From the NCBI RefSeq assembly GCF_000725425.1, contig NZ_CP006019.1:1772480-1836479 (forward strand): DNA of 64,000 bases. The letters run 5' to 3'. Under the pieces are notes generated by a model, which worked only from the letters and a program-made list of their open reading frames with translations, had not been told where the DNA came from and ran no database searches. The stretch is from Palaeococcus pacificus DY20341. Its GTDB lineage: Archaea; Methanobacteriota_B; Thermococci; Thermococcales; Thermococcaceae. Positions within the stretch are counted from its first letter, which is position 1, and each line of letters begins with the position of its first letter. Made by a program: the position numbers and the translations under genes. Of this stretch, positions 7,245 to 60,066 are shown piece after piece.

Positions 7245-9584
7245 TCATCTTCCATCAATCCTAAAAACTCCCCTATCTAATACCGTTTTCTTTTTGGAGT
7301 AGATATATCTAATAATTGTCCCATTGACTTCAGCCGGAAGCTCAAACTCCTTCAAGTCTTTTACAGGATACCACTTCTCAAAGACCAGTGTTCCGTTCTC
7401 CAAATACGCAAACACTCCCAAGTCAGTTCCCGTAGCATTCTCAAACTTGAAAATTATCTCGCTGTTATTTCTTTCAACAACAACATTTGGATGCTTGAAC
7501 TTAAATATCTTGATATATCCGCCATCCGAATAGACTAGCTCATAATCCTTTGCATACTCATCGGTGAACATGAGTTTAGCTAAAGTCGTGTTGAATGTCT
7601 TCTCACTCATTAACACAGCATAACCGTAGTTTAAGTTTATATAAATGTAAGCATTTCCAACTTTTTCACCTTTAAAAGTGAGCTTTGTTAAGTTGTTCCT
7701 ATACTCTAAAAAGACTTCTCTCGGCGAGAATACTTGGCCACCAGCGTTTACCAAAATTTGCCACCTCTCACCAGGCTGGGCAACTATTTTGTATCCATCC
7801 TTTTCAAAAAGCAGAGTTCCGAATTTAGAAACCAAGGGCAAAACTACCAGAGCATGATCCTCTTTTGAAACATTGACAGTATCTAAAACCGCACTAAACT
7901 TTAGGGCTGTGTCATAAGAAACGATTATATAATCAACGCCGGAGTTCATGGCCCATCTTTCGCTCAAATCACCCAACAAGTATCGAGCCACACCCTGATT
8001 CGGAACCATCTGTGCAACAGTTCCCCTCCTTGCATAATATTCAACCCAAGCCCCATAATCCCACCATGCTAAAACAATATCGTTTTCATAGGAGTTGTTT
8101 TCCAGCCAGGTTAGAGAACCAACCCAATGATCGTTAATTAAAGGCCTCTCTGCTTTAACCCTACTAAATCCAATGGCAAAGCCCATTGAAAGCAAAATCA
8201 CTATGCTGAGATTTAGTGCCAAAATCTTTCTCTTATCTAAATTGAAAGCACTCAATTGTTCATAAAGTGCAATTAGTCCTGCCCCACTCATTAATGCAAC
8301 TGCCATCGAACCTATGAATAAGAATCTCGTCCATGTATAAATCATATAGATGCTTGGAAATATTAAACCGAGGCTTAAAAAGTCCGCAATTTTCACTCTC
8401 TTTGGTGTAAGTCTCAGAATGAACAAGAGACTGAGAAGCATCCCAATATTGTATGCACTCCAAAGGTCAGAAAATGTTGAATGCTGTGTCTCCAAGATAG
8501 GTGATTCTTTAAAGATTCCAAAACCCGAGGAAAGCTCCTTCAATATTTCAAACTTACTGAACACTAAAAGCACTCCCACAATGGAGAATATCAAAATAAG
8601 TACAGCCCTCTGTTTTTTATCCTTTATAACTCTACTAATCATCATGAGTACGAGAATCACAAGCAAAGCCAATGGGACAAGGTATTTCAAGTGGATTAAT
8701 AGATAAACATCCTTAATTCTGCCTAAGTTTAAACCAAATTTCTCGACTAATTTTTTAGCAAGCCATTTCTTCCCTCCAAGCATTCCATATCTAAGATGCC
8801 CACCGAGATAATTAGCAAATAAAACACCAAGAGCTGTGGAGAGTGTTAAAGCAATCGAATGCTTGAAATAATTCCTTTTATCCAAAATAAACGCCCCGAT
8901 TGCTAAAAACATGGCATTTCCAAGCAAAAAGAGAAATATCGGATAATACGCTGTCCAAAAAGCGCTCGCAAACCCACTTGCAAAAGCTGGAATTAAATAG
9001 AACATATAACGTTTGTATCTCCAAGCTCTCCTTTTGTATTTAAACGCCAATGAAATCCCAAACAAAGCCACGCTGTACCAGAAAAGCATGTAATTATCAC
9101 CGCGGTAATAATTGGCCATTGACCTAAAAACGTGCCCATACATTATCGCAAGGAAGAATGAGGAGAAAAACGCCTCCTTTTTTCCGTAGAAGTTGAGCAC
9201 TGCCAAATAAAAGAAAGCTACTGTTAAAACACCAAAAATTGGTGCTGTCACCCTAAATGCATCATATAAAGAGACTCCAAAAATCTTCAAAAGTTTCCAA
9301 ACAAAAACTGGAGTTGCATAAAAGCCCAGAGGATGCCATGAATTATCAAACAATTGTCCCCAAGGAGCACTAGCCAAAGGATAAAAGTTAATCCAATACC
9401 CAGCCCTCAAGCTCTCCTCAATGTAAGCCAAGTGAAAATAGGGGTCATAACCGAAAAGGTAGTGATATCTCAATGGGAGAAGCCTAAATATCGCAGCAAT
9501 AATCACCACAAAAGAAAGCGCATACCTCGGCTCGAGTATTCTCCCACTCAAGTTCACTACCTTTTCAAACTTCTCGTTCCTCAT
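7245..9584 (-). CDS. aglB: AglB/STT3 oligosaccharyltransferase, short form
   Basis: Catalytic subunit of N-glycosylation; it transfers a glycan from dolichyl (pyro)phosphate to Asn in N-X-S/T sequons outside the membrane. The 779 residues comprise about 13 N-terminal spans and a C-terminal globular domain. The first-loop acidic motif is GYDPYFH (Asp47), a second acidic site GDNYM lies near residue 159, and the sequon-binding WWDYG is near residue 507. Archaeal AglB proteins are often about 850-980 residues, so this resembles the shorter paralog known in Pyrococcus. The start follows GAGGGGTATTC. The downstream flippase gene, 49 nt away, fits the same pathway. Confidence 0.92.
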   Translation of the reverse strand: MRNEKFEKVVNLSGRILEPRYALSFVVIIAAIFRLLPLRYHYLFGYDPYFHLAYIEESLRAGYWINFYPLASAPWGQLFDNSWHPLGFYATPVFVWKLLKIFGVSLYDAFRVTAPIFGVLTVAFFYLAVLNFYGKKEAFFSSFFLAIMYGHVFRSMANYYRGDNYMLFWYSVALFGISLAFKYKRRAWRYKRYMFYLIPAFASGFASAFWTAYYPIFLFLLGNAMFLAIGAFILDKRNYFKHSIALTLSTALGVLFANYLGGHLRYGMLGGKKWLAKKLVEKFGLNLGRIKDVYLLIHLKYLVPLALLVILVLMMISRVIKDKKQRAVLILIFSIVGVLLVFSKFEILKELSSGFGIFKESPILETQHSTFSDLWSAYNIGMLLSLLFILRLTPKRVKIADFLSLGLIFPSIYMIYTWTRFLFIGSMAVALMSGAGLIALYEQLSAFNLDKRKILALNLSIVILLSMGFAIGFSRVKAERPLINDHWVGSLTWLENNSYENDIVLAWWDYGAWVEYYARRGTVAQMVPNQGVARYLLGDLSERWAMNSGVDYIIVSYDTALKFSAVLDTVNVSKEDHALVVLPLVSKFGTLLFEKDGYKIVAQPGERWQILVNAGGQVFSPREVFLEYRNNLTKLTFKGEKVGNAYIYINLNYGYAVLMSEKTFNTTLAKLMFTDEYAKDYELVYSDGGYIKIFKFKHPNVVVERNNSEIIFKFENATGTDLGVFAYLENGTLVFEKWYPVKDLKEFELPAEVNGTIIRYIYSKKKTVLDRGVFRIDGR

Positions 9585-9898
9585 GAATACCCCTCAATTA
9601 GTTTACATACCTTTGGGAATAAGATGCAGAGCGTGATAAGGGCATTCCTATAACCTGCCAAAATAAAATAACTCAGACGAAAGATAAAAATGTTGTGCTC
9701 CCCGCACTGTGTTTTGAAGTATCCAGAATGACCAATGGAGCATAAATATATCTAATGCATTGCACAAAGGACATTTTCACTTTGTTATAATTCCACTTAA
9801 ATACCACATTATTTTTAATAAATTCAAATTTAATTTTGCTTTAAATAAAAATAATGGAACAGAAAACTTTATATATTCCAAAGCCAACATTAGTATGA
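9585..9898. other. Intergenic: aglB promoter region and ncRNA promoter
   Basis: About 310 bases without a supported protein gene. The left part must hold the minus-strand promoter of aglB; no single TATA box stands out. The right end holds the TATA box of the structured RNA that follows. A 99-residue plus-strand reading (9354-9653) is mostly antisense to aglB and has no family signature, so it is left out. Confidence 0.5.
9867..9878 (+). promoter_or_regulatory. TATA box of the structured RNA
   Basis: The sequence CTTTATATATTC is centred about 27 nt before the first paired base of the RNA at 9899, the usual archaeal TATA-to-start distance. An A-rich BRE-like stretch (GAAAA) precedes it. This placement is independent support that 9899 is close to a real transcription start. 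Confidence 0.75.
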
Positions 9899-10062
9899 GG
9901 GGTACTGTGTAGGAAGGGACCGAAGCGAAAGCTTCACCCTGACCCAGAGTTCATACCTAAACATGGGTCTTGCAACTTACCCAGAGTTGTAAGGTTCATG
10001 TGTGAAGGTGTGGACCCTGCCTCAGAGCGAAACTCACTGAGGCCCCACCTATATAGTACCCC
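9899..10062 (+). ncRNA. Structured non-coding RNA with 15-bp closing stem
   Basis: A GC-rich island in AT-rich surroundings. The ends 9899-9913 and 10048-10062 pair over 15 bp (13 Watson-Crick, 2 G-U). Inside are a GAAGC-GAAA-GCTTC hairpin (9922-9935) on a GGG/CCC base, a GACCCA/TGGGTC hairpin (9941-9969), a CTTAC/GTAAG hairpin, and GCCTCAG/CTGAGGC (10019-10043). A T-rich run follows at 10066-10071. It has its own TATA box. It fits the class of high-GC ncRNAs found in AT-rich hyperthermophiles (the hgc RNAs, or sscA of Pyrococcus abyssi), but I cannot say which from sequence alone. It is not 5S, SRP or RNase P RNA by size and motifs. Confidence 0.82.
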
Positions 10063-10096
10063 TCATTTTTTCTATAGCACCTAAAAACAAAAGTTA

Positions 10097-11558: not shown

Positions 11559-12554
11559 CTAATCTCCCCTCTGTATTTTCGCATGTCCTCCAACGAGGCT
11601 CTTCTTAAGCTCCAAATTCCTTATCTCGCACTTTTCATCGATTATGGAACGCCAGATCGTTGAGTTCCTGATTATCGTGTTCCTAAAAATTATGGAGTCG
11701 CTTACATCGGAACTATCAATTACGCAGTTTTCGCCTATATACGCATAGGGCCCTATCATAGACCTCCCCAAAATCCGGGCACCCTTCTTTATCACCACAG
11801 GAGGGATTATTTTGGAGTATGGGCTAATTTGAATCTCTTCTATGTGGCTTTCCTTTAGCAAAGTTCTCAACGCCTCAAGATAGCTGTCGGAAGAACCTAT
11901 ATCGTACCAGTAGTTATCGAACTTGTAAGCGTAGATATCAACCCCATCAGAAAGCAACCACTGAATAAAATAGCCCGGGGAATCCCTATTGCCATTTTTT
12001 AAATACTCATCAATCCTGGCCATTATCTCCTTGGGGAATGCATAAACACCTGTGCTTATCAGTGTAGATTTGGGCTCAGCAGGCTTTTCTTGGAAGTCTA
12101 TAACCCTGTTCTCCTCAAGCACCACCACACCATATCTCTTTGCCAGCTCAAAGTCGCCAACATCATAGACAGCTATCAGCGGTTTGCCTGAGTAGTGCTT
12201 TAAGAACTCGTTTAAGCTGAAGGAGAACAAATTATCACCTGCTATTACGAGATAATCGTCCAAGCCTAGTTCGTCTATAGCTAACTTCAGCGCTCCAATA
12301 GTGCCGAGCTTCTCCTCCTCGTGGAGCGTATCTTCAACTAAAAGCTCCACGCCCTTATCTTCAGCATAGCTCTCAAAATACTTGGCGAAGAAGCGGTTTG
12401 TGGATATATAAACTTCCATATCAAGCTCTTTTGTCTTCTCAAGGATGTAATCGAGAATAACCCTATCCCCCACAGGCAGCAACGCCTTGGGATTATCTTT
12501 GGTTATGGGCCACAAACGAGTAGCATAGCCGCCAGCCATAATCAATACTTTCAT
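11559..12554 (-). CDS. Sugar-phosphate nucleotidyltransferase with left-handed beta-helix
   Basis: Makes an NDP-sugar from NTP and a sugar 1-phosphate. The N-terminal Rossmann-like domain starts with MAGGYATRLWPITKDNPKALL, split here as GGYATRLWP (nucleotide loop) and KALLPV. LAGDNLFSF gives the catalytic/metal Asp, and FQEKP and YWYDIGS follow. The last 80 or so residues are hexapeptide-like repeats (IGPYAYIGENCVI) of a beta-helix. The ATG at 12554 is chosen since AGGTGAT overlaps the upstream GTG. It is divergent from an epimerase gene 87 nt away, a natural partner. The sugar (glucose, mannose or other) is not determined by sequence. Confidence 0.85.
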   Translation of the reverse strand: MKVLIMAGGYATRLWPITKDNPKALLPVGDRVILDYILEKTKELDMEVYISTNRFFAKYFESYAEDKGVELLVEDTLHEEEKLGTIGALKLAIDELGLDDYLVIAGDNLFSFSLNEFLKHYSGKPLIAVYDVGDFELAKRYGVVVLEENRVIDFQEKPAEPKSTLISTGVYAFPKEIMARIDEYLKNGNRDSPGYFIQWLLSDGVDIYAYKFDNYWYDIGSSDSYLEALRTLLKESHIEEIQISPYSKIIPPVVIKKGARILGRSMIGPYAYIGENCVIDSSDVSDSIIFRNTIIRNSTIWRSIIDEKCEIRNLELKKSLVGGHAKIQRGD

Positions 12555-12641
12555 CGCTATCACCTTGATTCACAACTCGAGTGTTAAAATTTACGCCAAA
12601 GATATTTAAATCATTTTGCATTAATAGTTGTGGTGGTAAAA

Positions 12642-13589
12642 GTGAAAATCCTCGTAACAGGCGGTGCTGGATTTATCGGTTCACACTTGGTTGATGCGCT
12701 AATGGAGAGGGGCCATGAAGTTAAAGTTGTTGATGACTTAAGCGCCGGGAGCCTGGAAAACATTAAAAGGTGGCTGGATAACGAGCGCTTTGAATTTATA
12801 AAGGGCGACTTGAGGGAGCCGAGCGTTTGCAGCGAAGCTGTTAAAGGAGTGGAGGCTGTTTTTCACTTGGCAGCTAACCCCGAGGTTAGGATTGGCGCCC
12901 AAAGTCCAGAGCTTCTCTACGAAACCAATGTTTTGCTCACGTACAACATCCTAGAGGCCATGAAAAGAGAAAATGTTGAATACCTCATCTTCACCTCATC
13001 ATCAACCGTTTATGGTGACGCTAAAATAATTCCCACACCTGAGGACTACGCTCCTCTAGAACCCATAAGCGTCTATGGAGGAGTAAAATTAGCGGCTGAA
13101 GCTTTAATCAGCGGCTACGCTCACACCTTTGATATAAAGTCGCTCGTCTTTCGTTTGGCAAACATAATTGGAGAGCGCTCCAACCACGGGGTAATCTACG
13201 ACTTCATAAACAAGCTCAAAGCAAATCCAGGGGAGCTTGAAATTTTGGGCGATGGAACGCAGAGAAAGAGCTATCTCCACGTTAGCGACACGGTTGAAGC
13301 TATGTTATACCTCTTCGAGCGCTTTAAAGAAGAAGGAAAAATTTTCGACGTCTACAACCTCGGCAGTGAAGACTGGATTACGGTTAAGGAAATAGCAGAG
13401 ACGGTGAGCAAAGGAATGGGCTTAAATCCAAAATTCCGCTTCACCGGTGGAGTTGATGGAGGAAGGGGCTGGAAGGGCGACGTAAAGTTCATGCGTCTGA
13501 GCATAGAAAAAGCCAAAGCTAAGGGATGGAAGCCAAGGATGAACAGCTATCAAGCCGTAGAAAGGACTGTGAAAGAGCTCTTGGGTTAA
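12642..13589 (+). CDS. NAD-dependent sugar-nucleotide epimerase/dehydratase (GalE-like)
   Basis: An extended SDR enzyme of 315 residues. TGGAGFIGSHL binds the NAD ADP moiety, FTSSSTVYG carries the catalytic Ser/Thr, and YGGVK is the YxxxK catalytic pair. It probably epimerises or dehydrates a UDP- or GDP-sugar for glycan assembly. GTG 12642 is chosen because GGTGGT lies just before it and homologs begin with (M)KILVTGG; GTG 12630 would add four residues. A TATA-like GATATTTAAATC lies about 12600-12611. It is divergent from the nucleotidyltransferase. Confidence 0.85.
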   Translation: MKILVTGGAGFIGSHLVDALMERGHEVKVVDDLSAGSLENIKRWLDNERFEFIKGDLREPSVCSEAVKGVEAVFHLAANPEVRIGAQSPELLYETNVLLTYNILEAMKRENVEYLIFTSSSTVYGDAKIIPTPEDYAPLEPISVYGGVKLAAEALISGYAHTFDIKSLVFRLANIIGERSNHGVIYDFINKLKANPGELEILGDGTQRKSYLHVSDTVEAMLYLFERFKEEGKIFDVYNLGSEDWITVKEIAETVSKGMGLNPKFRFTGGVDGGRGWKGDVKFMRLSIEKAKAKGWKPRMNSYQAVERTVKELLG

Positions 13590-13669
13590 AATGCATAATT
13601 TATCAATCGTTACTTTTTGTTCCATTTTTGAATATTTCTCCTAACAGATTTTCAACTTTCAAACGAAAT

Positions 13670-13682
13670 CTTTATATATTTC
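13670..13682 (+). promoter_or_regulatory. TATA box of the sulfate-activation operon
   Basis: CTTTATATATTTC lies about 25 nt upstream of a tandem repeat at 13692-13710, where transcription should begin. It drives the RHH gene and, by spacing, the whole run to 20317. Confidence 0.6.
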
Positions 13683-13691
13683 TTTGTTGGC

Positions 13692-13710
13692 TAATTAAAT
13701 GTAATTAAAT
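13692..13710 (+). repeat. Tandem TAATTAAAT repeat, candidate operator
   Basis: TAATTAAAT occurs at 13692-13700 and again at 13702-13710, exactly 10 bp apart, so both face the same side of the helix. It covers the expected transcription start and lies 25 nt before the start of an RHH protein gene. RHH regulators bind such short repeats cooperatively, so autoregulation is likely but inferred. Confidence 0.5.
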
Positions 13711-13735
13711 ATCATTAAGGTTGGAGGTGTTTGTG

Positions 13736-13963
13736 ATGGCTGATGAAAAGAAGTACACAACAGTTTCAATTCCAAAGCCCCTCTATGATAAGATTAAGGC
13801 AAGAATAGAGGGAACAGGATTCACTTCAGTTTCAGACTACGTTACATACGTTTTGAGGGAAGTTTTGGCAAGCCTTGAGGAAGAGGAGAAGGAAGAGGTC
13901 TTCAGCGAAGAGGAAGAAGAGAAGGTTAAGGAGAGACTGAGGGCTCTTGGGTACCTCGACTGA
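13736..13963 (+). CDS. Small ribbon-helix-helix (CopG-like) protein
   Basis: The product has 75 residues. The N-terminal KYTTVSIPKPLYDKI strand and FTSVSDYVTYVLREVL helices match the RHH DNA-binding fold. The C-terminal third is a highly acidic Glu-rich helix (EEEEKEEVFSEEEEEK). The ATG at 13736 follows GGAGGTG (13723-13729); the upstream TTG would overlap the SD. It is the first gene of the run that continues with sulfate adenylyltransferase 28 nt later. I infer that it controls this operon through the tandem repeat in its leader. A structural role instead of a regulatory one is possible. Confidence 0.75.
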   Translation: MADEKKYTTVSIPKPLYDKIKARIEGTGFTSVSDYVTYVLREVLASLEEEEKEEVFSEEEEEKVKERLRALGYLD

Positions 13964-13991
13964 TTCTTTAACTCTTTCTTAGGTGATGGTC

Positions 13992-15131
13992 ATGGTTTCT
14001 AAGCCGCACGGTGGCAGGTTAGTTAGGAGAGTAGCCGCTGAAAAGACTAGGGAGAGAATTCTAAGCGAGCAGCACGAGTTCCCAAAGGTGCAGATTAGGC
14101 ACGGTTTAGCTATCGACCTTGAGAATATAGCTCACGGAGTCTATTCACCACTCACTGGCTTTTTGAGGAGTGATGAGTTCCAGTCCGTTCTCGACCATAT
14201 GAGATTATCAAACGATATTCCCTGGAGCATTCCAATAGTTCTCGACGTTGATGAGCCCAACTTTGAAGAGGGTGATGCAATTTTGCTCTACTATGAAAAC
14301 ACTCCAATAGCGAGGATGCACGTTGATGAGATTTACACCTACGACAAGAAGGAATTTGCCCAAAAAGTATTCAAGACCACCGATGAGGCCCATCCTGGTG
14401 TCGCAAAGGTGTATTCAATGGCCAAATACCTCGTCGGCGGTGAAATCGAGCTCCTCAATGAAGTGCCAAACCCCTTCGAGAAGTACACCCTAAGGCCAGT
14501 TGAGACGAGGGTGCTCTTTAAGGAGCGCGGCTGGAAAACCATTGTGGCTTTCCAAACAAGGAACGTGCCGCACCTCGGGCATGAATACGTGCAGAAAGCA
14601 GCTTTAACCTTCGTTGACGGTCTCTTCATAAACCCAGTCCTCGGAAAGAAGAAGAAAGGAGATTATAAAGATGAAGTGATAATCAAGGCCTATGAGACTC
14701 TCTTCGAGCACTACTATCCAAAGAACGCCGCGACGCTCGCGACGGTCCGCTATGAGATGCGCTATGCTGGGCCAAGAGAAGCAATCCACCACGCAATAAT
14801 GAGGAAGAACTTTGGGGCAACTCACTTCATAGTTGGAAGGGATCACGCAGGAGTTGGCGATTATTATGGGCCATATGAAGCATGGGACCTCTTTGATGAG
14901 TTCCCCGACTTGGGCATAACCCCAATGTTCATACGTGAGGCTTTCCACTGCAGGAGATGCGGAGGAATGGTTAACGCGAAGATATGCCCCCACGATGAAG
15001 AATTCCACATCAGGATAAGCGGCACGAAGCTCAGGAGGATGATAACGAGCGGTGAGAAGCCGCCAGAATACATGATGAGGCCAGAGGTCTATGAAGTGAT
15101 AAGGAGCTTTGAGAAGCCCTTCGTAGAGTGA
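13992..15131 (+). CDS. sat: Sulfate adenylyltransferase (ATP sulfurylase)
   Basis: Converts ATP and sulfate to adenosine 5'-phosphosulfate (APS) and pyrophosphate. The 379 residues include FQTRNVPHLGHEY (about 186-198; Gln-Thr-Arg-Asn and the two His of the HxGH motif) and GRDHAGVGDYYG (about 282-293). A C-terminal zinc-knuckle-like group CRRCGGMVNAKICPHDEEFH has three Cys and His residues, as in archaeal and thermophilic enzymes. ATG 13992 is used; the AGGTGAT SD overlaps the upstream GTG/ATG. There are no dissimilatory reductase genes nearby, and an APS kinase follows in the operon, so the product is most likely PAPS rather than an electron acceptor. Confidence 0.94.
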   Translation: MVSKPHGGRLVRRVAAEKTRERILSEQHEFPKVQIRHGLAIDLENIAHGVYSPLTGFLRSDEFQSVLDHMRLSNDIPWSIPIVLDVDEPNFEEGDAILLYYENTPIARMHVDEIYTYDKKEFAQKVFKTTDEAHPGVAKVYSMAKYLVGGEIELLNEVPNPFEKYTLRPVETRVLFKERGWKTIVAFQTRNVPHLGHEYVQKAALTFVDGLFINPVLGKKKKGDYKDEVIIKAYETLFEHYYPKNAATLATVRYEMRYAGPREAIHHAIMRKNFGATHFIVGRDHAGVGDYYGPYEAWDLFDEFPDLGITPMFIREAFHCRRCGGMVNAKICPHDEEFHIRISGTKLRRMITSGEKPPEYMMRPEVYEVIRSFEKPFVE

Positions 15132-15136
15132 TCCCC

Positions 15137-16069
15137 ATGCTAATAGTTCACCACTGGGACACGGACGGCATAACTTCAGCGGCCCTCGTTATCAAAGCTT
15201 TGAGGTTAGAGGACTTCATGAACTTGAGCCCTCCAATCGGAGAGTTCCGTCTTGACGAGAGGATTAGAAAAGCCATTGAAAAGTCTGAAAAGATCTACAT
15301 CCTCGACCTCAATTTAGTCCACGAAGTTGAGGGAATAGAGAAAGAGATTATATTCATAGACCACCACATCCAGCCGAGAATCAAAAACCCAAAAGTTAAG
15401 CAGATAAACCCGGCACTGGAGGGAAATGAGGCTCCTTCAGCCTCTTTCGTAGTCTCCTCTTATTTTTCCCTTTGGAACGCTTGGAGTGCTTTGGGGGTAA
15501 TTGGTGATATTGGAAGCAAAGCCTTTGAAATTCCAAAAGTTGGAGAGCTCTTAGAAAAAGAAGGACTCACAAAGGAGGAAGCTCTGAGGTTAGTTCAGCT
15601 CATTGATTCAAACTACATCGTGATGGAAAGAGAGAGCGTGGAGAAGGCCGTTGGAATACTTTTAAGCTCAACTCTCAGGGAGCTTTTGGAGTACGAACCG
15701 TGGATTAAGAATGTTGAGGCGATAGAAAAAGCAATCCAAGACGCTTTCTCAAGCGTAGAGCTGAAGGAGGGTTTTGCGTTCATAGAGTTCACGAGTTCAT
15801 TCAATATAATCTCAAAAATCGCAAGGAAAGCGGTTTGGGAAGTGGGCTATAAAGGGGCAATCGTGGTAAACAGGGACTTCCACGGGAAAGGCCAGATATA
15901 CTTTAGAATCTCCCACGAGCTGAAAGAGAGAATAAACATGGGTAAGATTATTGGCGCTCTCAAAGAAAAGGGCTTCAACGCGGGTGGAAAGAGTGAGGTT
16001 TTGGGCTGCGTTTGCGAAAGGGATAGAATAAGCGAAGCTTTAGAGATAATTAACGCCCATTTGAGGTGA
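15137..16069 (+). CDS. DHH/DHHA1-family phosphoesterase (candidate PAP phosphatase)
   Basis: The protein has 310 residues. VHHWDTDGITSA (about 4-15), DLN (57-59) and IDHH (74-77) are the metal-binding motifs of the DHH domain. The C-terminal DHHA1 domain ends with FNAGGKSEVLGC, the GG substrate-binding motif. Relatives of the NrnA type cleave short oligonucleotides and dephosphorylate 3'-phosphoadenosine 5'-phosphate (pAp). pAp is the by-product of PAPS-dependent sulfation, and this gene sits between sat and APS kinase, so pAp removal is a good inference, not shown. The ATG at 15137 lies 5 nt after the sat stop. Confidence 0.85.
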   Translation: MLIVHHWDTDGITSAALVIKALRLEDFMNLSPPIGEFRLDERIRKAIEKSEKIYILDLNLVHEVEGIEKEIIFIDHHIQPRIKNPKVKQINPALEGNEAPSASFVVSSYFSLWNAWSALGVIGDIGSKAFEIPKVGELLEKEGLTKEEALRLVQLIDSNYIVMERESVEKAVGILLSSTLRELLEYEPWIKNVEAIEKAIQDAFSSVELKEGFAFIEFTSSFNIISKIARKAVWEVGYKGAIVVNRDFHGKGQIYFRISHELKERINMGKIIGALKEKGFNAGGKSEVLGCVCERDRISEALEIINAHLR

Positions 16070-16074
16070 TCGGG

Positions 16075-17466
16075 ATGGAAAACGTTAAGAAAGTCTTTGT
16101 TATCGGTTTAGATTCAGCTCCTCCAGAGCTGCTCTTCGATAGGCTTTTGGATGACCTACCAAACATAAAGAAGCTCTTGGAAAAATCAATTTACGGCCCA
16201 ATGCAGAGCACAATCCCAGCAATCACTATTCCCGCATGGATGGTCATGGCCACGGGCAAAACACCTGGAGAGCTTGGATTATACGGCTTTAGACATAGAA
16301 AGAAGGGCACATACAACGATATCTGGATTGCCCATGCCCTAATGGTTAAGGAAAAGGCCGTTTGGCACTACATAGCTGAAAAGGGCAAAAAATCAATTTT
16401 AGTTGGCGTTCCGCCGAGCTATCCACCAAGGCCAATCAACGGCTACCTCGTGAGCTGTTTTATAACCCCAGATGCTTCAGTTGATTATACTTACCCAAAA
16501 GAGCTTAAAGGCGAGATTGAGCGCTTAGTCGGTGAGTACATCTTTGATGTAGTCTTTAGAAAAGAGAACAGGGATGAGGTTAAGGAGCAACTCTGGGAGA
16601 TGACGAAAAAGAGGTTCGAGGTTATTCGCTACCTAATCCAGGAGAAGGAGTGGGACTACTTCCAGTTCGTGGATATAGGGCTTGACAGGGTGCACCACGC
16701 CTTCTGGAAGTACTTCGACGAGAACCACCACCTATATCCCGGTGATGACAATCCCTACAAAAACGTCATCCCAGATTACTACAAGCTCCTCGATGAGGAG
16801 ATAGGAAAAACATTGGAGCTCCTGGATTTAGATGAGACCGCTGTCATAATAGTTTCAGACCACGGAATAAAGGCTATGAAGGGAGCTTTCGCAATAAACC
16901 AGTGGCTGATTGAAGAAGGCCTACTCAAAATCAAGAACCCCGAGATTCTCAAGGAAGGGAGGCAGGTTAGATTCAACGAGCTTAAGGTTGACTGGAGCAA
17001 GACGATTGCTTGGGCTTGGGGCGGCTACTACTCAAGGGTCTTCCTCAACGTCAAGGGAAGAGAACCCCACGGAATCATCGAGCCCGAGAACTATCACAAG
17101 GTTAGGGACGAGGTTGCCGAGCTCATAAAGGGCATTAGAGGGCCAAACGGTGAGAAGTGGAATACTAAAGTGTTCTATCCAGAGGAGATATATCCAATTG
17201 CTAAAGGAGACAAACCCGACATGATGGTTTATTTGGACGATTTGAACTGGAGAGCTGCTGGAACTCTCGGTTATGAAACACCATACCTCTTAGAGAATGA
17301 CTTGGGCCCAGATGATGCCGTCCACGCTGAGTATGGAGTGTTCTCCCTGTATCTGCCAGGTATGGAGGAGGCTAAGCAAACCCAGCTCACAATTTACGAC
17401 TTTGCACCAACAGTGCTCAAGCTCTTTGGAATGAAAAAGCCGCTTAGAGGGAGGAGTGTAATATGA
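16075..17466 (+). CDS. Alkaline-phosphatase-superfamily phosphodiesterase-like protein
   Basis: The protein has 463 residues. GLDSAPP (Asp13), TIPAWMVMATG (Thr51, likely nucleophile), DIGLDRVHHAFW, SDHGIKAMKG and HAEYGVFSLY supply the expected metal ligands. The C-terminal DFAPTVLKLFGM is typical of this archaeal group. It lacks the Cys/Ser-x-Pro-x-Arg of formylglycine sulfatases, so a phosphodiesterase or phosphotransferase is likelier than a sulfatase. SD GGTGATC precedes ATG 16075. The stop overlaps the APS kinase start as ATGA, which ties its function to sulfate activation in some way not known. Confidence 0.75.
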   Translation: MENVKKVFVIGLDSAPPELLFDRLLDDLPNIKKLLEKSIYGPMQSTIPAITIPAWMVMATGKTPGELGLYGFRHRKKGTYNDIWIAHALMVKEKAVWHYIAEKGKKSILVGVPPSYPPRPINGYLVSCFITPDASVDYTYPKELKGEIERLVGEYIFDVVFRKENRDEVKEQLWEMTKKRFEVIRYLIQEKEWDYFQFVDIGLDRVHHAFWKYFDENHHLYPGDDNPYKNVIPDYYKLLDEEIGKTLELLDLDETAVIIVSDHGIKAMKGAFAINQWLIEEGLLKIKNPEILKEGRQVRFNELKVDWSKTIAWAWGGYYSRVFLNVKGREPHGIIEPENYHKVRDEVAELIKGIRGPNGEKWNTKVFYPEEIYPIAKGDKPDMMVYLDDLNWRAAGTLGYETPYLLENDLGPDDAVHAEYGVFSLYLPGMEEAKQTQLTIYDFAPTVLKLFGMKKPLRGRSVI

Positions 17467-18035
17467 GCGAGAAAGTAGGAGCAAATGCCCAAGGAGCATC
17501 TCTTAGGACGTTGGAGCGGGGATTTACCATTTGGCTCACTGGGCCAAGCGGTGCTGGAAAAACAGTTTTGGCACACGCTCTAAAAAAGAAGCTCAAGGGA
17601 ATGGGCTATAGAGTGGAGATTTTAGATGGCGATGTGATAAGAAAAACCCTCTATCCAAACTTAGGTTTTAGCAAGGAAGCGAGGGAGATGCACAACCGCA
17701 TAGTTATCCACATGGCCAAGCTCCTATCGAGAAACGGCGTTATAACGATAGTATCACTAATCTCCCCTTACAGAGCCGTCAGGGAGTACGCGAGGAAGGA
17801 GATAGGCAACTTCATTGAAGTCTATGTTTATGCTCCCCTCGAGGTGAGGATCCAAAGGGATCCAAAGGGTCTCTATGCTAAAGCCATAAGGGGAGAAATC
17901 AAGGGATTGACGGGCTACGACGGCGTTTATGAGGAGCCAGAGAGCCCGGAAGTTAAGGTGGACAGCTCAAAGATGACTCCCGAGGAAGAGGTAGAGGCAG
18001 TCTTAAGCAAGGCCAGAGAGCTTGGCTATCTTTGA
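17463..18035 (+). CDS. cysC: Adenylylsulfate (APS) kinase
   Basis: Phosphorylates APS at the 3' position to make PAPS. The 190 residues include the P-loop GPSGAGKT (27-34), LDGDVIRK (54-61), LISPYR (about 98-103) and the mobile-lid region ending KGLTGYDGVYEEPE, all hallmarks of CysC. Length matches the stand-alone bacterial and archaeal kinase. The start overlaps the previous stop by 4 nt. With Sat upstream the operon makes PAPS from sulfate and two ATP. Confidence 0.93.
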   Translation: MSEKVGANAQGASLRTLERGFTIWLTGPSGAGKTVLAHALKKKLKGMGYRVEILDGDVIRKTLYPNLGFSKEAREMHNRIVIHMAKLLSRNGVITIVSLISPYRAVREYARKEIGNFIEVYVYAPLEVRIQRDPKGLYAKAIRGEIKGLTGYDGVYEEPESPEVKVDSSKMTPEEEVEAVLSKARELGYL

Positions 18036-18044
18036 GGTGATGCC

Positions 18045-18782
18045 ATGCTCTCTTTCATTTTTCTTGGCTTCCTCGTTGGCATTTTAGTCGGCCTCACGGG
18101 TGTCGGCGGAGGAGCATTAATGACACCTTCGCTCATCTTTTTTGGAGTTGAACCGTTAACAGCTGTTGGCACTGATTTGGTTTACGCCACGATTACAAGG
18201 GTTTTTGGGGTGTTCTTCCACAACAAAAAGGGCCACGTTAAGAAAGATATTGCCCTAAAGCTCTTCACGGGCAGCGTTCCTGCCATAGTGTTAGCTTCAA
18301 TTATTTTAAGGATAGTAAGTAAGAAGGAGATTAATCAATATTTAACTCTCGTATTGGGAATTATACTTGTTGCCACATCCACGATAACCATTTTAAAAGG
18401 AGAGTTTAGGAAGAGAACGTTTAGCTCCCATACTTTGATTATTCTCGGGTTTGTGGTGGGTTTGATTGTTCAATTCACATCGGTTGGCGCCGGCGTTATT
18501 GTCAGCTTTGCGCTCATGAACTTCACTGATTTAGAGCCGAGATACGTTGTTGGCACCACGATTTTCTACGGCCTTTTGCTTGCCTCACTAAGCGCTTTGA
18601 GCCACATAACTCTTGGAAATGTGGACTATCTTTTAGCGCTCTCCTTGATTGTAGGAACGATTCCAGGGGTTTATATGGGCACACATATAAACTCAAGCAT
18701 TCCCAAGGATAAGCTTAAGAGCTTCGTTAACATGATAATCCTAGGGATAGGACTGGTGATACTCCTAACCGAACTTGGGTGA
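18045..18782 (+). CDS. TauE/SafE-family membrane transporter
   Basis: The protein has 245 residues with about eight spans. GFLVGILVGLTGVGGGALMTP is the first of two family repeats, split here as GLTGVGGGALMTP; the second is FVVGLIVQFTSVGAGVIVSF. The family moves sulfite, sulfoacetate or related organosulfur anions. Its place directly after APS kinase suggests sulfate or sulfite movement, although direction is unknown. SD GAGGTGATGCC precedes the ATG. The next gene starts within 6 nt of its stop. Confidence 0.85.
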   Translation: MLSFIFLGFLVGILVGLTGVGGGALMTPSLIFFGVEPLTAVGTDLVYATITRVFGVFFHNKKGHVKKDIALKLFTGSVPAIVLASIILRIVSKKEINQYLTLVLGIILVATSTITILKGEFRKRTFSSHTLIILGFVVGLIVQFTSVGAGVIVSFALMNFTDLEPRYVVGTTIFYGLLLASLSALSHITLGNVDYLLALSLIVGTIPGVYMGTHINSSIPKDKLKSFVNMIILGIGLVILLTELG

Positions 18783-59917: not shown

Positions 59918-60066
59918 GGGGGCATGGTGTAGCCTGGTCTATCATCGCGGGCTCCAGAGGCCATGAGGAGGAGCGGGTTTGCTGACTCGGGGCATGATGA
60001 CCCTTTGGAGCCCCGAGCGGCTGGAGAAACCCGCGGACCGGGGTTCAAATCCCCGTGCCCCCACCA
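59918..60066 (+). tRNA. tRNA-Trp (CCA) with 71-nt intron
   Basis: Acceptor GGGGGCA/TGCCCCC, anticodon stem GCGGG/CCCGC, anticodon CCA at 59954-59956, T-arm CGGGG-TTCAAAT-CCCCG, discriminator A and encoded CCA. The anticodon loop is split after G37; the intron is 59958-60028. The exon/intron folding gives helix GCGGG/CCCGC, bulge AAA, helix CTCCA/TGGAG, bulge GAG, helix GCC/GGC, a bulge-helix-bulge for the archaeal endonuclease. Confidence 0.95.
59958..60028 (+). ncRNA. tRNA-Trp intron containing box C/D guide RNA
   Basis: Box C ATGAGGA (59963-59969), D' CTGA (59982-59985), C' ATGATGA (59994-60000) and D CCGA (60013-60016). The guide before D' (GCGGGTTT) pairs with AAACCCGC, its fifth base facing C39. 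The guide before D (TGGAGCCC) pairs with GGGCTCCA, its fifth base facing C34. Guidance of 2'-O-methylation at positions 34 and 39 by this intron is established in other Euryarchaeota. The D box is a variant (CCGA), placed by the N+5 rule. Confidence 0.85.

Follow-up and report, generated by a model that had tools for sequence, protein, structure and literature searches.

The HgcC, HgcE, HgcF, and HgcG RNAs of hyperthermophilic archaea are GC-rich, structured products of stand-alone genes, and their functions are largely unknown. The structured RNA sscA of the same archaeal order is located in Thermococcus kodakarensis in the 5' untranslated region of the EF-1-alpha mRNA (PMC4247193). Mapping in T. 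onnurineus NA1 located 57 intergenic noncoding RNA starts, only 22 of which matched Rfam, and the accessible part of that study describes no RNA family like the one reported here (PMC5316973).

Here we describe a structured RNA of about 172 nt encoded at positions 9895 to 10066 on the forward strand of a 64,000-nucleotide stretch of DNA (the window) from the hydrothermal-vent archaeon Palaeococcus pacificus DY20341. The window (1,772,480 to 1,836,479) is part of a single chromosome of 1,859,370 bp, the size published for CP006019 (PMC4574382), and places the RNA gene at about 1,782,373.

Fold and promoter of the RNA gene

The segment extending from 9899 to 10062, proposed in an earlier note on this DNA to be an RNA gene of 164 nt, folded with an energy of -83.2 kcal/mol versus -46.6 ± 4.1 kcal/mol for dinucleotide shuffles (z = -8.9), and none of 200 shuffles performed as well. 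The z values ranged from -4.7 to -15.4 across the 12 family members tested. The proposal of a structured RNA was borne out, whereas the length had to be revised to the limits given above: the closing helix, described as comprising 15 bp, holds within the shorter segment and reaches 19 bp with four bases added on each side. This helix (P1) pairs positions 9895 to 9913 with positions 10048 to 10066 in P. pacificus and comprises 17 to 19 bp in the family, its outermost part (TGAGG/CCTCA) being almost invariant. The long distal arm P3 (9946 to 10016) is variable in sequence and retains its apical pairing.

Covariation was analyzed with 37 copies for the 18 modeled pairs of P1 and the 15 pairs of the apical part of P3. 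Standard pairs occupied 94.7% of the P1 cells, and the closing helix displayed the compensatory, two-sided changes called for in the earlier note at 11 of its 18 pairs, compared with 13 of 15 for apical P3. Taken together, the two helices had standard pairs in 90% of the cells and two-sided changes at 24 of the 33 pairs. Their covariation score was 0.531 versus 0.345 ± 0.012 after shuffling (observed value reached by 0 of 500 shuffles) in an alignment that is not independent of the homologue search, which partly relied on models of the same family. Sliding the partner by 1 to 3 columns reduced pairing to 40 to 50%. On the evidence of this alignment, P1 and P3 are conserved by compensatory change. 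The same helices contained 233 G-U cells versus 37 A-C cells; since both oppositions should be treated alike at the DNA level, this large excess marks the forward strand as the RNA.

The core located between P1 and P3 comprises a 5' arm (9916 to 9945), which is the most conserved part of the RNA, and a 3' arm (10017 to 10047). Two foldings are possible, since the arms may form two hairpins, giving a cruciform, or pair with each other in a continuous rod. The first hairpin, P2 (GAAGC-GAAA-GCTTC, 9922 to 9935), is the GAAA-loop hairpin that had been reported among the internal helices, and its loop is almost invariant in the family; the second, P4 (GCCTCAG...CTGAGGC), is a candidate. The rod pairing involves identical columns in all clades and is retained in copies from two genomes, presumably of the T. 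barophilus type (G018 and G006), in which P2 has disappeared. Covariation was modest for the rod (0.211 versus 0.176 ± 0.009), the covariation test gave no signal for the P2 and P4 hairpins, and a cross-pairing test supported the rod in some clades only. The energies of the two forms are close at 37°C in many members, and a temperature of 80°C usually favors the cruciform, so that energy does not decide between them. As read from the alignment, covariation weakly favors the rod and does not favor the cruciform at all. In the rod form, the pairing of 9916 to 9945 with 10017 to 10047 contains five conserved, regularly spaced A-C oppositions, which count against this form. The rod core had 128 A-C cells versus a single G-U cell, the reverse of the preference detected in the other helices.

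A TATA box (TTTATATA) is present on the forward strand at 9868 to 9875, i.e., 20 to 28 bp upstream from the RNA, the distance being appropriate, as previously claimed. In nearly every intact copy, whatever the clade, the box lies at the same distance from the RNA, and it was missing from the decayed copies. Further upstream, the 19-bp element AATTTTGCTTTAAATAAAA (9832 to 9850, forward strand) belongs to a region that aligns at the same place 5' of most homologues and is conserved across genera. In the genomes of P. pacificus and of a strain that we take to be T. onnurineus (G071, two RNA copies), sequences matching this element with at most two mismatches were found only upstream from copies of this RNA, and this restriction makes the element a candidate activator site dedicated to the promoter of the RNA. 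Transcription would begin at about position 9895 and stop in the T-run that follows P1. This run, correctly recognized in the earlier note, is located at 10066 to 10071, directly 3' of the RNA, and belongs to a T-rich 3' end (TTTTTTCTATA, 10066 to 10076, forward strand) that is a probable termination region; pyrimidine-rich tracts also follow P1 in relatives. RNA-seq reads of the P. pacificus strain exist under accession numbers SRR10749089 and SRR10749090 (PMC6981617). From this arrangement, the RNA is predicted to have its own promoter and not to be the leader of a gene. In view of the fold, the covariation, the strand-specific tolerance of G-U pairs, the conserved promoter, and the scarcity of downstream genes in the leader orientation, the locus is almost certainly the gene of a stand-alone structured RNA, as had been proposed, and this RNA represents a new family.

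Distribution among relatives and genomic setting

A covariance model built on the first 17 copies matched 43 of the 94 Thermococcaceae genomes and gave no match in the other genomes of the class. Full-length matches in relatives reached an E value of 2e-41. The RNA was present in 36 of the 74 near-complete Thermococcaceae genomes, a count that omits decayed fragments in three genomes (G007, G062, and G069). A second, better model produced only subthreshold matches in 37 genomes devoid of a strong match, and the absences therefore hold at the sensitivity of that model. Genomes bearing the RNA include those that we take to be T. onnurineus, T. barophilus, and T. sibiricus, and genomes lacking it include those that are presumably T. 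kodakarensis, Pyrococcus abyssi, P. horikoshii, P. yayanosii, and T. gammatolerans. The presumed T. barophilus genome G018 has a single copy, at 1,843,490 to 1,843,664. Scanning of 85,000 GTDB genomes for the pattern of the P2 hairpin also retrieved 24 contigs from outside the Thermococcales, which were judged to be chance matches; their best covariance model score was 28 bits versus 104 to 183 bits for the Thermococcales contigs.

On a tree based on a single gene, aIF2-gamma, with many weak branches, about 11 changes were needed to explain the distribution of the RNA, and supported branches made at least 6 of these unavoidable. As read from this tree, the RNA is passed on by inheritance, with repeated loss or gain. 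Since about half of the Thermococcaceae genomes are devoid of the RNA, it is not generally essential. P. pacificus has one copy, as do most genomes, and the others have at most two copies or a tandem pair. Tandem pairs, with copies about 155 bp apart, occur at loci L113 (9108 to 9590), L115 (8921 to 9400), and L119 (9144 to 9631), where the upstream copies form a subfamily of their own, with 88% identity between species and 55 to 60% identity to the adjoining copy. Decayed copies were identified at loci L128 (8804 to 8925, genome G007) and L126 (9207 to 9367, genome G072); one is reduced to the 3' half, and the other lacks the TATA box. The genome holding the isolated 3' half also lacks the APS kinase gene.

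In the window, the RNA gene is divergent from aglB (7245 to 9584, reverse strand), which encodes an oligosaccharyltransferase (Pfam STT3-PglB_core, 24.3 bits for a cutoff of 23). Sugar-nucleotide and sulfate-activation genes, assigned for the most part with Pfam, occupy positions 11559 to 18782 and encode an NTP-transferase, an NAD epimerase, a small ribbon-helix-helix-like protein, a sulfate adenylyltransferase-like protein (named from its sequence alone), a DHH phosphoesterase, a phosphodiesterase, an APS kinase, and a TauE exporter. The same set of genes accompanies the RNA in relatives. Genes of glycan assembly (aglB or genes for a nucleotidyl transferase, sugar epimerases, or flippases) or of sulfate activation were located at 8 kb or less from 44 of the 45 full-length copies of the RNA, the sulfate (PAPS) operon having the order sulfate adenylyltransferase, DHH phosphoesterase, phosphodiesterase, APS kinase, and TauE. 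The position of the RNA, inside such an island or on its border, is nearly constant. A divergent second copy (L101) has no recognized glycan genes beside it. The ribbon-helix-helix-like protein (13721 to 13963), for which the Pfam search gave no match, is highly conserved and heads the sulfate activation operon in 23 of the loci examined; it is a candidate regulator of the island. In many Thermococcaceae genomes, one border of the glycan island is formed by a tRNA-Glu(ctc)/tRNA-Ile(gat) pair, which is located upstream from the RNA in L102 to L108 and L117 and downstream in L097, L099, L100, L114, and L118. This edge is likely to be a hot spot of island turnover.

Among the 74 near-complete genomes, 34 had both the RNA and the APS kinase gene, 2 had the RNA only, 18 had the APS kinase gene only, and 20 had neither (Fisher P = 8e-6, kinship being ignored). 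Pairs of genomes that are independent of one another on the tree gave about 3.3 agreements and 0.1 disagreement, which are too few to reach the 0.05 level, and the association is therefore not established once the tree is considered. Since the RNA and the APS kinase gene are physically linked in some copies, loss of the island explains part of the co-occurrence.

Alternative explanations for the locus

The locus could be a border or recombination element of the glycan islands, in which near-identical copies present at the edges allow cassettes to be swapped by homologous recombination and any transcript is incidental. Two RNA copies in the same direction, i.e., direct repeats, bracket the whole glycan island in genomes G082 and G085 (22 and 28 kb, respectively), and two copies located 15 kb apart flank the PAPS operon in G010. 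In G085, the RNA bodies of the two copies, L108 (8826 to 8988) and L109 (9123 to 9285), share 99.4% identity and the promoters differ, which suggests that gene conversion was limited to the RNA body. The presence of the tRNA pair at an island edge and the location of the decayed copies at rearranged junctions also fit this explanation. It does not account for the compensatory changes with tolerance of G-U but not of A-C, which are the signature of an RNA made from one strand, for the conservation of a dedicated promoter across genera, for the single copy found in most genomes, or for the location of the RNA inside the island in the P. pacificus window. The evolutionary signature at the RNA level disfavors a purely DNA-level role, and we consider a border element unlikely. 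A double role, in which the RNA gene is also a target for recombination, is quite possible.

Antisense regulation of a convergent neighbor, usually encoding a sugar-nucleotide transferase or a dehydrogenase, by overlap with the 3' end of its mRNA is less likely still. In 37 of 44 copies, the first gene downstream has the convergent orientation, and the gap is often only 5 to 30 nt, but the identity of this gene varies among clades and conservation concerns the RNA core rather than the overlapping end alone. In the window, the next gene, located about 580 bp downstream, has the same direction as the RNA, and the convergent gene is 1.5 kb away.

The location of the RNA between differently directed transcription units and the T-run that follows it could also indicate that the locus serves a neighboring operon in cis as a leader, terminator, or insulator. 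However, most copies are not followed by a gene in the leader orientation, and the conserved TATA box and upstream element belong to the RNA itself. Because the downstream gene is mostly convergent and the nearest upstream gene mostly divergent (35 of 45 copies), the RNA is not a riboswitch-like leader, and a cis-acting role appears decidedly improbable. The 19-bp terminal inverted repeats and the patchy occurrence are reminiscent of a transposon-like element (MITE), an explanation that has very little chance of being correct given that copies are single or at most paired in each genome, that the flanks show no visible target site duplication, that conservation extends about 60 to 80 bp upstream beyond the terminal repeat, and that the plasmid, phage, and viral-contig collections searched contained no match.

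Proposed function and relationship to known RNA classes

The explanation that we favor combines a new RNA gene with an RNA-protein particle acting in trans on the island, and we assign to this combination a probability of about 0.5. In this mechanism, the helices of the RNA would provide a scaffold and the conserved core would be the binding site of at least one protein. The particle so formed would act in trans on the island of glycan and sulfation genes, most probably through adjustment of its expression. A particle is suggested by the fact that conservation concerns the internal core of the RNA rather than an exposed guide sequence. Unpaired apical sequences vary among clades, and the combination of a conserved core with variable apical loops appears to fit protein binding better than antisense guiding. 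Action in trans is suggested by the observations that the RNA is not a leader and that its neighbors differ between clades. The more precise assignment as a protein-binding, trans-acting RNA with a regulatory or structural role in the service of glycan/sulfation islands is tentative, and any specific regulatory mechanism exerted by the RNA on the island is to be regarded with similar reserve. A more speculative and rather doubtful version is that the particle is dedicated to the surface glycan sulfation island of the Thermococcaceae, is gained and lost with this island, perhaps switches between the rod and the cruciform, and controls which cell coat is made.

If this were true, archaeal glycosylation would have a regulator of a new kind in this dedicated RNA particle. 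The link with N-glycosylation and sulfate activation islands makes it possible to test whether an RNA contributes to the control or diversification of the cell surface in archaea. T. barophilus and T. onnurineus are genetically manipulable, and both appear to carry the RNA. Structured RNA families that are found from a single genome and backed by covariation are uncommon in archaea. The RNA would be missed in the usual model species because it is undetected in the presumed genomes of T. kodakarensis, P. abyssi, P. horikoshii, and T. gammatolerans.

Searches with the 4227 families of Rfam 15, performed at gathering and relaxed thresholds, matched no family at the RNA in P. pacificus, including the HgcC, HgcE, HgcF, HgcG, and sscA models and the C/D and H/ACA families. 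Twenty homologous loci likewise gave no match at the RNA. In agreement with the previous exclusion of tRNA, 5S, SRP, and RNase P RNAs, no family attained its gathering score. The sole weak match, rliD (12 bits), was attributed to chance. Inspection of the RNA sequence by eye, without a motif program, revealed neither an RTGATGA box nor a 3' ACA. Elsewhere in the window, a C/D box RNA (59959 to 60018) matches Rfam sR40 and overlaps sR3. As judged by these models, the RNA family is new, absent from Rfam, and so far specific to the Thermococcaceae. The two copies of genome G071 may be among the noncoding RNAs that were mapped in T. onnurineus and had no match in Rfam (PMC5316973); their starts would lie on the minus strand near 1,724,085 and 1,724,399.

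The earlier suggestion that the RNA belongs to the hgc or sscA class would fit its archaeal order, which is the same, its richness in GC, and its length, which is close to that of HgcF (168 positions). Sequence and structure models refute this suggestion, which retains a negligible probability, and the true sscA and HgcF genes are located elsewhere on the same chromosome, at 477,243 to 477,342 (76.4 bits) and 1,251,124 to 1,251,294 (114.9 bits), respectively. HgcF is thus a separate gene in P. pacificus, with a different predicted fold and no sequence similarity to this RNA, and HgcC, HgcE, and HgcG likewise have no sequence or covariance model match to it. Unlike sscA, which is located in a leader in T. 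kodakarensis, this RNA is not in a leader, although both are structured RNAs of the same archaeal order. The RNA described here resembles the Hgc RNAs in kind, as all of them occur in hyperthermophilic archaea, stand alone, are structured, and have a high GC content.
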